Made by a program: the position numbers and the translations under genes. Shown in pieces: positions 45,326 through 51,300 of a stretch of DNA of 64,000 nt (the stretch's first letter is position 1; every line of letters begins with the position of its first letter). The notes below the pieces were generated by a model. It saw only the letters and a list, made by a program, of their open reading frames with translations, ran no database searches and was not told the origin of the DNA. Source of the DNA: Pempheris klunzingeri (taxonomy: Eukaryota > Chordata > Actinopteri > Acropomatiformes > Pempheridae); the NCBI RefSeq assembly GCF_042242105.1, contig NC_092028.1, positions 10,959,338 to 11,023,337 on the forward strand, given 5' to 3'.

Positions 45326-45594
45326 CAGAGCCGGCTCTAGTCATAATGGTGCCCTAGGCCAGATGCGCACCGATCACTCGCCCCGCGCCCCTTCCATGGT
45401 GTAGGACTGGGGGGGGGGGGTGCGTGCGCCTCAGGAGCACCGGACGGGGGGGGGCGTGCGTCTCAGGAGCGCCGGACGGGGGGGTGGGGGGTGGGGGGGG
45501 GTGCGTGCGTCTCAACAGCGCGCACCCCCCCCCACCCCCCCACCCCCCCGTCCGGCGCTCCTGAGACGCACGCCCCCCCCCACGCACGGCCCTG
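45326..45594 (+). mobile_element. Short hAT element (269 bp) with GC-rich foldback core
   Basis: The element starts CAGAGCCGGCTCT and ends CACGGCCCTG. An exact 8-bp target duplication CCCACGAT flanks it (45318-45325 and 45595-45602). The interior is a near-palindrome: G-runs with GTGCGTGCGTCTC on the left pair with C-runs and GAGACGCACGC on the right. It contains no coding capacity. The left breakpoint of the 2.7-kb duplication lies in its first G-run (about 45409-45420). Confidence 0.9.
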
Positions 45595-45624
45595 CCCACG
45601 ATGAAAGGGGAAAAGGGGAAACAG

Positions 45625-48296: not shown

Positions 48297-48326
48297 CCCA
48301 CGATGAAAGGGGAAAAGGGGAAACAG

Positions 48327-51300
48327 TCAGTTATTTTGACGTTTGAAGACAGAAACCAGTCTCATCTTCGCTCGACGAAACAGTTTGCAGGTCCTCTGAA
48401 AAAGATTTTTCTTCTTCTTCTTCTTGATGTTAGCGTCATCAGCAGATCCAGGGGCAGCTGCAGCTCCCTCAGTGTTGTCGTCATCTGTGTTTGTAGGGCT
48501 GTCATTGCGAGGAATAGCAGCACCTGAGTCTTCCTCATTGGCAATAGCAGTGTCTCCTACTGGCTCGCTGGAATGAGTGGGAGGGCTGTCACCTGAGGAG
48601 ACACTGCTGGCTGACATTATAGTGTCTTTGTCACTGGAACTTGGAATTGATGAGTGTCCATTAAAGATGCAATTGGTGGCCGGTACTGCATCTTGGTTAT
48701 GGGAAGAGTCAGCGTCAGTATTGGTACCACTGTAACCCTCAGTGGCTGAGGGTTCATCAGCGACACACTCCGAGTCCTTTACCGAGAGCCTGACAGAAGA
48801 TGGCTCTCTGTCTGAGGGGACCTTCAGAGCTTCAGAGCTATCAAACCTCTGGACCTGAAATGGTTCAGCGGGTGTGTCCTTTTTCTCTTCCATGTTTGTA
48901 GGGCCGTCATTACGAGGAATAGCAGCACCCGAGTCTTCCTCAGTGGCAATAGCAGTGTCTGCTACTGGCTCGTTGTTCCAGCCTTCGTCACTGGAATGAG
49001 CGGGAGGGCTGTCACCTGAGGAGACACTGCTGGCTGGCATTATAATGTCATCAGCGAAATGCTCCGAGCCCTTTAGCGGGAGCCTGGCAGAAGATGGCTC
49101 TCTGTCTGAGGAGACCTTCAGAGCTCCAAGGTCTGCCTCCTCATGGCTGGAACTATGGGTGTCTGAGGCTCCAGCCCTTGAGTCAGAAGCCTGTTCGGCT
49201 CTGCGCTGCTTGGTGACAGAGAGAGGATTATCTGACTCATACAAAGTGTGGGAGAGGTTAACGGTCATGGGTTTAAGGCCAGCATTTGCATACGAGATGG
49301 TCCCAGCCAGGTGAGCCATTGTGATAAAAGGGTGTGCTAGGGCTTCCTTGGGTGTGATTCTCTTTCCAGGGTCCATATGCAGCATCGATTTTAGGAGGCT
49401 TAAAAATGCCATCCTATCTTCATATTCTAGAGTGCTGCTTTTCTCCGGGAAATTCTTCACTTCATACTCCAGATTTCCCATACGCTGGAAAAACTCCCAC
49501 ACAACTTCAGGCTCGTTACCAGTGCCCTTCTTGTACTCCCCTGGTGACTTCAGTCTCCACCCTGGACTGCTGGATTCGTCCTCTCTGCTGAAAAACATCC
49601 AGGTGTACATGCCAGCACTCAGCAGGAGGTCCTCTGGTTGACCCAGCATGTGTATCATAGCTTTCATCCTATAATAGTCACAGTCTCCACCGAAGATGTC
49701 ACCACAAAAGTACAGGAAGGACATGATGCATCCCACTGACCACATGTCAACAGCCTCAGACGGGGGAAGGCCAAGGGTCAACTCTGGAGCCCTGTATGCT
49801 GGAACCTGTATGGTCATCCCAGTGTATAATTTTCTGACTGGAAGGGCCAGACCAAAGTCGATGAGCTTCACCCTGAACGGCTGATCCCTGTGGTTGACGA
49901 GCATTATGTTGTCAGGTTTTAGGTCCGCATGTACGATGCCGATACCTTTCAGGGCGTCAAGTGCTACAAATAGCTGCTGCATCACAGGGCGAATTTCATT
50001 AAGACTCAATGGGGTTCTAGTTTCGTTCAGCAGGTCCCAAAGGCTCCTGTCCAGCATCTCGAAGGCCAGGCAGGAGGAGCTGTGGTATGTGAAACTGTCA
50101 GTGAATCTTACTATGTTTGACTTTTCTGGGTCAAGAGAGCGGATTGCTTTCAGCATCTCCAATTCCCAGCTGCAGGCATTACTGTCCTTGAGGATCTTAA
50201 CTGCCGCCAATTTGTTTGTTGTCATATCGACACACTTGACAACTTTGCCAAAATTTCCCTCACCCATAAAGTCCCTCACCAGGTAGCGGGTGGACTCGCT
50301 GGGGAGGATATCAAACCTCTGGACCTGAAATGGTTCAGCGGGTGTGTCCTTTTTCTCTTCCATGTTTGTAGGGCCGTCATTACGAGGAATAGCAGCACCC
50401 GAGTCTTCCTCAGTGGCAATAGCAGTGTCTGCTACTGGCTCGTTGTTCCAGCCTTCGTCACTGGAATGAGCGGGAGGGCTGTCACCTGAGGAGACCTTCA
50501 GAGCTCCAAGGTCTGCCTCCTCATGGCTGGAACTATGGGTGTCTGCGGCTCCAGCCCTTGAGTCAGAAGCCTGTTCAACTCTGCGCTGCTTGGTGACAGA
50601 GAGAGGATTATCTGACTCATCCAAAGTGTGGGAGTGGTTAACGGTTATAAGCTGAAGGGCAGCATTTGCATACGAGATGGTCTCGGCCAGGTGAGTCTTT
50701 GTGATGAAAGGGTGCGCTAGGGCTTCCTTGGGTGTGATTCTCTTTCCAGGGTCCATATGCAGAATCGATTTTAGTAGGCTTAAAAATGCCATCCTATCTT
50801 CATATTCAAGAGCGCTGGTTTTCACCGGGAAATTCTTCACTTCATACTCCAGATTTCCCATCTCCTGGAAAAACTCCCACACAACTTCAGGCTCCTTATC
50901 AGTGGCCTGCTTGTACTCCACTGGTGACTTCAGTCTCCACCCTGGACCGCTGGAGCCCTCCTCTCTGCTGAAAAACGACCTGGTGTACATGCCAGCACTC
51001 AGCAGGAGATCCTCTGGTTGACCCAGCATGTGTATCATAGCTTTCATCCTATGATAGTCACAGTCTCCACCGAAGATGTCACCACAAAAGTACAGGAAAG
51101 ACATGATGCATCCCACTGACCACATGTCAACGGCCTCGGACGGGGGAAGGCCCAGAGTCAACTCTGGAGCCCTGTATGCTGGAACCTGTATGGTCATCCC
51201 AGTGTATAATTTTCTGACTGGAAGGGCCAGACCAAAGTCGATGAGCTTCACCCTGAACGGCTGATCCCTGTGGTTGACGAGCATTATGTTGTCAGGTTTT

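Follow-up and report, generated by a model that had tools for sequence, protein, structure and literature searches.

Does the kinase locus described here carry two genuine copies of a 2.7-kb segment, or a single copy that was written twice during assembly? An earlier note on the window (by which we mean the whole stretch of DNA analysed, 64,000 nucleotides) had described two adjacent copies inside a kinase gene, offset by 2,702 bp and differing by one base of a C-run, and had offered a recent duplication and an assembly artefact as the two ways of accounting for them. These are the right alternatives, and sequence alone decides neither. The two alternatives were drawn up without the identity of the gene, which is HIPK-like and lies on the minus strand, with its 3' part and stop codon taken and the second copy start-less; they also left aside an older in-frame kinase duplication and a breakpoint in a palindromic hAT-like element, the position of which bears on both of them. 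A real duplication would be so young that its junction still tells how it came about, the element that seeded it being intact, and it would concern a kinase family that has been reported as expanded in some fishes. A false one would show how a single hairpin-forming element can give rise to a spurious gene copy and inflate the counts of such families.

The duplicated unit

When the window was compared with itself at offsets of 2690 to 2714, a 120-base run starting at 45414 (offset 2701) and a 2592-base run starting at 45525 (offset 2702) were obtained. Local alignment and self-BLAST set the following two segments against each other:

45414..48116, minus strand: unit, left copy (self-alignment)
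48115..50818, minus strand: unit, right copy (self-alignment)

The alignment comprises 2704 columns with no substitution and one indel, in a C-run that counts 9 C at 45525 and 10 C at 48226, and the remaining seven homopolymers of at least 6 bases within the unit have the same length in both copies. The near-identity first noticed by eye is thereby borne out, with the copy coordinates given at the time accurate to within 3 bases, and the approximately 830 residues said to be conserved in both copies correspond to 830.7 shared codons of coding sequence. Chance similarity is ruled out by the 2.7-kb length and the near-identity of the copies. The unit runs from the C-lobe of kinase 1 via its tail, kinase 2, a second tail and the stop codon to the 3' flank.

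A complete two-kinase gene and a copy of its 3' part

It had been proposed that the duplication lies within a kinase gene. The copies are indeed present in the sequence, but the gene is not interrupted by them, its reading frame being complete in the right-hand part of the locus:

48327..51791, minus strand: complete ORF of 1154 aa with two HIPK-like kinase domains and a tail (ORF list; Pfam PF00069 in 2 stretches; PDB HIPK2, E = 1.3e-77)
50592..51743, minus strand: kinase domain 1 with the first part of its tail (phmmer to HIPK2, 3.5e-77; tblastn)
49212..50363, minus strand: kinase domain 2 with the first part of its tail, 89% aa identity with kinase 1 (tblastn)

In a search of solved structures with this ORF, HIPK2 and HIPK3 took the top three places (1e-77 to 3e-75), followed by DYRK at 1e-40. 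The stretch that best matches the HIPK2 structure 6p5s (E 1e-77) falls in kinase 2, and kinase 1 searched alone returned the same three HIPK2/HIPK3 chains as its sole matches below 1e-60. The glycine loop, the AVKILK lysine, HADLKPDN with its catalytic Asp, and DFG are kept in both domains. An activation-loop tyrosine is a feature of HIPK/DYRK kinases; that of HIPK2 (in STYLQSRYYRAPE) aligns with a threonine in kinase 1 as well as in kinase 2, and we have therefore filed the gene as HIPK-like and not as an orthologue of one of HIPK1-4. It is probably a fish HIPK-type kinase; the types of repeat in the window suggest a teleost. It resembles the HIPK family (HIPK1-3) in that these are its closest solved kinases, well ahead of DYRK, and in its catalytic motifs, whereas it differs from them in having two kinase domains in one ORF and in the activation-loop threonine. 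A narrow phrase search of the literature for HIPK combined with two kinase domains found no paper, which is weak evidence of absence, and the two-kinase ORF merits annotation whether the duplication is real or false.

HIPK expansion in fishes is already in print. In the available text of the reports concerned, HIPK genes make up 14 of the new genes of Pleuronectoidei in flatfishes (PMC8618825), the yellow goosefish has a HIPK-like expansion (PMC7729161), and a Hipk1 gene is listed among the unique families of the marine medaka (PMC7493909). The likeness to the present case lies in the family that has expanded; the accessible parts of these reports count or list the genes only, and describe neither a two-kinase ORF nor a junction of the kind found here. 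Recent tandem duplicates as such are described as abundant in teleosts, above all in zebrafish, in the part of a further study that was available (PMC3464592). Among genome contigs, 520 stretches encode a relative; the 80 of these 520 that were listed are bacterial, at 25-35% identity, and were set aside as uninformative on this locus. Six stretches of viral contigs fit the search pattern, none of which was confirmed as a relative.

The two kinases of the complete ORF are themselves repeats of each other, with 94.6% identity over 1252 bp and without a gap or stop. The 67 substitutions that separate them give a dS of 0.079 and a dN of 0.049, and the resulting dN/dS of 0.62 is below 1, though not significantly so (Fisher p = 0.13); the substitutions create no stop codon, against 2.5 expected, and the balance of synonymous and replacement changes does not differ significantly between the inside and the outside of the kinase domain (p = 0.20). 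Between the catalytic loop and APE there are neither synonymous nor replacement changes, so that conversion and constraint are inseparable there. This interval is covered by an identical run of 164 bp (51157-51320 in kinase 1, 49777-49940 in kinase 2), free of synonymous change and longer than expected from shuffling of sites (mean 85, p = 0.003), which is a possible trace of gene conversion between the two kinases. A further repeat lies in the tail:

48839..49025, minus strand: 187-bp block, 100% identical to 50309-50495 and to both corresponding places in the left copy (self-BLAST)

This block matches the start of repeat 2 at 100%, and tblastn places the N-terminus of a third repeat, deprived of its kinase, at 48840-48893. 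Taken together, the 94.6% identity of kinases 1 and 2 and the start of a third repeat in the tail indicate that in-frame tandem duplications had enlarged the gene ahead of the 2.7-kb event.

Since the unit takes the 3' part of the gene together with its stop codon, the complete ORF is left as it was and what has been added downstream is a copy without a 5' end. We infer that both the two-kinase ORF and its own 5' side were unchanged by the duplication. Two features describe the added copy:

45625..48285, minus strand: left-copy ORF, 5'-truncated, with a C-lobe fragment of kinase 1, a tail, the whole of kinase 2 and a tail (ORF list, self-BLAST, tblastn)
45157..45162, minus strand: first AATAAA past both stop codons (AATAAA/ATTAAA search)

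From stop to stop the left-copy ORF spans 45625-48330, and the palindrome and flank account for the first 72 residues of this reading. Its first in-frame ATGs lie at 48090, 48054 and 47661, of which the last is the start of repeat 2, and initiation there could yield a product with a single kinase. The search for poly-A signals was limited to AATAAA and ATTAAA. On the coding strand of 44001-51799, AATAAA occurs at 45157, 44180 and 44158, all beyond the left copy, and ATTAAA does not occur; neither hexamer is thus found on this strand within the unit or between the two ORFs. Because the extra copy lacks a 5' region of its own and no such signal separates it from the complete ORF, it would, if it is transcribed at all, probably be the readthrough 3' part of the complete gene's transcript.

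The edge of the unit

The three edges of the unit, when compared, reveal direct, adjacent copies with one novel junction and with both ancestral edges present, which is the arrangement expected of a true tandem duplication. The features at these edges are as follows:

48113..48121, unstranded: novel junction of kinase-1 sequence with a 7-G palindrome edge, GG microhomology (three edges compared)
45409..45581, unstranded: G-run, 32-bp G-rich repeats and palindrome with 56-nt arms (repeat, inverted-repeat, G4 and fold searches)
45326..45594, unstranded: 269-bp hAT-like non-autonomous element with the target-site duplication (TSD) CCCACGAT on both sides and the breakpoint within it (TSD and ends)
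48115..48296, unstranded: second copy of the element, truncated, its left terminus missing (self-BLAST, element ends)

The ancestral order can be read as left flank, complete hAT-like element, gene end, complete kinase 1 and right flank, and the sole new join is that of kinase 1 to the palindrome edge. The two edges share 2 bp (GG) at the join, a microhomology that is uninformative, being no more than chance often gives. The G-run counts 12 G at the left edge (45409) versus 7 G at the junction (48115). The window, the junction included, is made up of A, C, G and T, without an N.

One end of the unit falls inside the palindrome, the 56-nt arms of which are 96% complementary and which is accompanied by a G4 motif at 45478-45501. 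With the pattern used (four runs of at least 3, loops of 1-7), all four G4 matches in the window, two per strand, fall in the element and its copy. The DNA fold of 45405-45600 has an energy of -116.6 kcal/mol; shuffled versions average -62.3 (z = -16.5), and 0 of 200 came out as stable. When the whole sequence was folded in 639 overlapping 200-nt windows, the two lowest values (-116.6 and -112.5) came from the palindrome and its copy; the third (-42.1) overlaps the palindrome, and the best one that overlaps neither copy reaches -36.7.

The element itself is flanked by a perfect 8-bp TSD, CCCACGAT, at 45318-45325 and 45595-45602, and apart from these sites the octamer has just two occurrences in the window, at 23794 and, in the second copy, at 48297. 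Its ends, which were chosen by eye, read CAGAGCCGG and, at the other end in reverse complement, CAGGGCCGT. The 8-bp TSD and the CAG(A/G)GCCG-type ends of 45326-45594, which we take to be hAT traits, liken it to the non-autonomous hAT elements, from which it departs in that its two ends agree in 7 of the first 9 bases, with little likeness beyond. A literature search for hAT MITEs linked with duplications brought up a single paper, which is unrelated. The truncated element at the junction stops at 48296 and shares its right flank with the complete one, but it has no left end, which is what a breakpoint inside the element predicts and which identifies the left element (45326-45594) as the original. 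A diverged, uninterrupted relative of the target (...GGAGTAAACCTCACGATGAAAAG...) lies just left of the element, within 45180-45330, and looks like an unfilled version of the same target site. We also observed a 39-nt inverted pair, 44363-44401 and 45326-45364, at 82% and with AGAGCCGGCTCT; the arm at 44363-44401 resembles the right terminus of a further element of this type, which would end at 44401.

Origin of the second copy

Inverted-repeat hairpins stall replication forks, and error-prone repair of replication breaks yields tandem duplications, as stated in the available portion of a review (PMC12708500). In birds, according to another paper, regions with G4-forming and inverted-repeat sequence went undetected with Illumina and were strongly depleted in PacBio data (PMC6792250). 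Given that such structures can both stall replication and hinder sequencing and assembly, an edge at this place speaks for either of the main readings. We nevertheless lean, with due reserve, towards a real and very recent tandem duplication at a locus that had been duplicated before. It is favoured by the lack of Ns and by the earlier tandem layers at the locus (kinases 1 and 2 at 94.6%, the 187-bp repeat at 100%), and the copies are identical bar one C-run indel. Against it stand an edge that coincides with the type of sequence on which sequencing and assembly fail, the fact that the only internal difference is a poly-C run inside the hairpin, and the unproven constraint on the older kinase copies (dN/dS 0.62, p = 0.13). 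In a rival explanation, a contig from the same haplotype broke at the hairpin; one end was carried on across the unit as far as kinase 1, and the contig that follows, which begins at the G-run, was attached to it with the overlap left unmerged. Such 'homotype' false duplications are a known class, described in the available text of PMC9516828. One end of the unit lies exactly at the G-run/palindrome edge, the G-run differs (12 versus 7), identity is otherwise near-perfect with the sole internal difference in the poly-C run, and G4/inverted-repeat DNA is the kind reported in part of the bird study as poorly sequenced (PMC6792250). However, no N marks the junction, and the other tandem repeats at the locus are, by their divergence, not assembly copies; moreover, of the 6 assemblies tabulated in PMC9516828, 5 have homotype as the smaller class. 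We regard this artefact as doubtful, albeit one to be reckoned with. The false duplications of that study, in the text available, resemble the present case in having their copies on one scaffold and differ from it in the gap, which is usual between false copies, if not required, and is absent here.

The two remaining explanations are both very improbable in our judgement. 'Heterotype' false duplication, in which two alleles of one locus are set end to end, was the main source of false duplication in the same study (PMC9516828), but the chance of finding no substitution in 2703 bp would be 0.26, 0.067, 0.0045 or 1e-6 at a heterozygosity of 0.05, 0.1, 0.2 or 0.5%, respectively, and here too the absent gap speaks against it. 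This allelic case, the one that would give half-depth coverage, was judged unlikely at usual heterozygosity on account of the zero substitutions. The copies could also be older and have been kept identical by gene conversion, which the 164-bp identical run of kinases 1 and 2 (51157-51320, p = 0.003, mean 85) and the fully identical 187-bp block make plausible between repeats at this locus. Conversion would, however, have had to extend over the whole 2.7 kb, the non-coding hairpin too, without a remainder, and a single recent event is simpler.

If the duplication is real, as we are inclined to believe, replication may have stalled at the G4/hairpin of the hAT-like element, and the fork would then have restarted approximately 2.7 kb away on the 2-bp microhomology, so that the unit was copied a second time by template switching or by microhomology-mediated break-induced replication. 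A stalled fork followed by a template switch predicts a single new join and the survival of both ancestral edges, which is what is seen. With no substitution, and assuming 1e-8 to 3e-9 mutations per site and generation, the event would be younger than approximately 55,000-185,000 generations (95%), an age at which polymorphism is plausible, and the duplication, if real, may well be polymorphic; gene conversion could, on the other hand, make it look younger than it is. Our fuller proposal, which we advance tentatively and would not ourselves count as probable, is that the palindromic hAT element behind the gene acts as a local seed of duplication, that stalling at its G4/hairpin has only just copied the 3' part of the HIPK-like gene, perhaps polymorphically, and that this gene had before gone in-frame from one kinase to two, a third having since been lost.

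Surroundings of the locus

The only Rfam hit at the gathering threshold in the window is a tRNA match at 8846-8918. Of its 69 stop-to-stop ORFs, 10 neighbouring ones were searched in Pfam and two matched; pieces of a phospholipase B-like gene lie on the plus strand at 9672-13351 (Pfam PF04916 in 2 ORFs). A minisatellite (43126-43771; 57 bp, 11.4 copies, 96% matches) lies close by on the left side of the locus, and three 41-bp direct repeats with 97% matches lie directly upstream of the kinase ORF's ATG (51815-51939). Finally, a large inverted repeat at 33116-35591, with arm pieces of 315, 91, 85 and 65 nt at 91-100% and 1.2-2.3 kb between them, is probably a foldback element or an inverted duplication.
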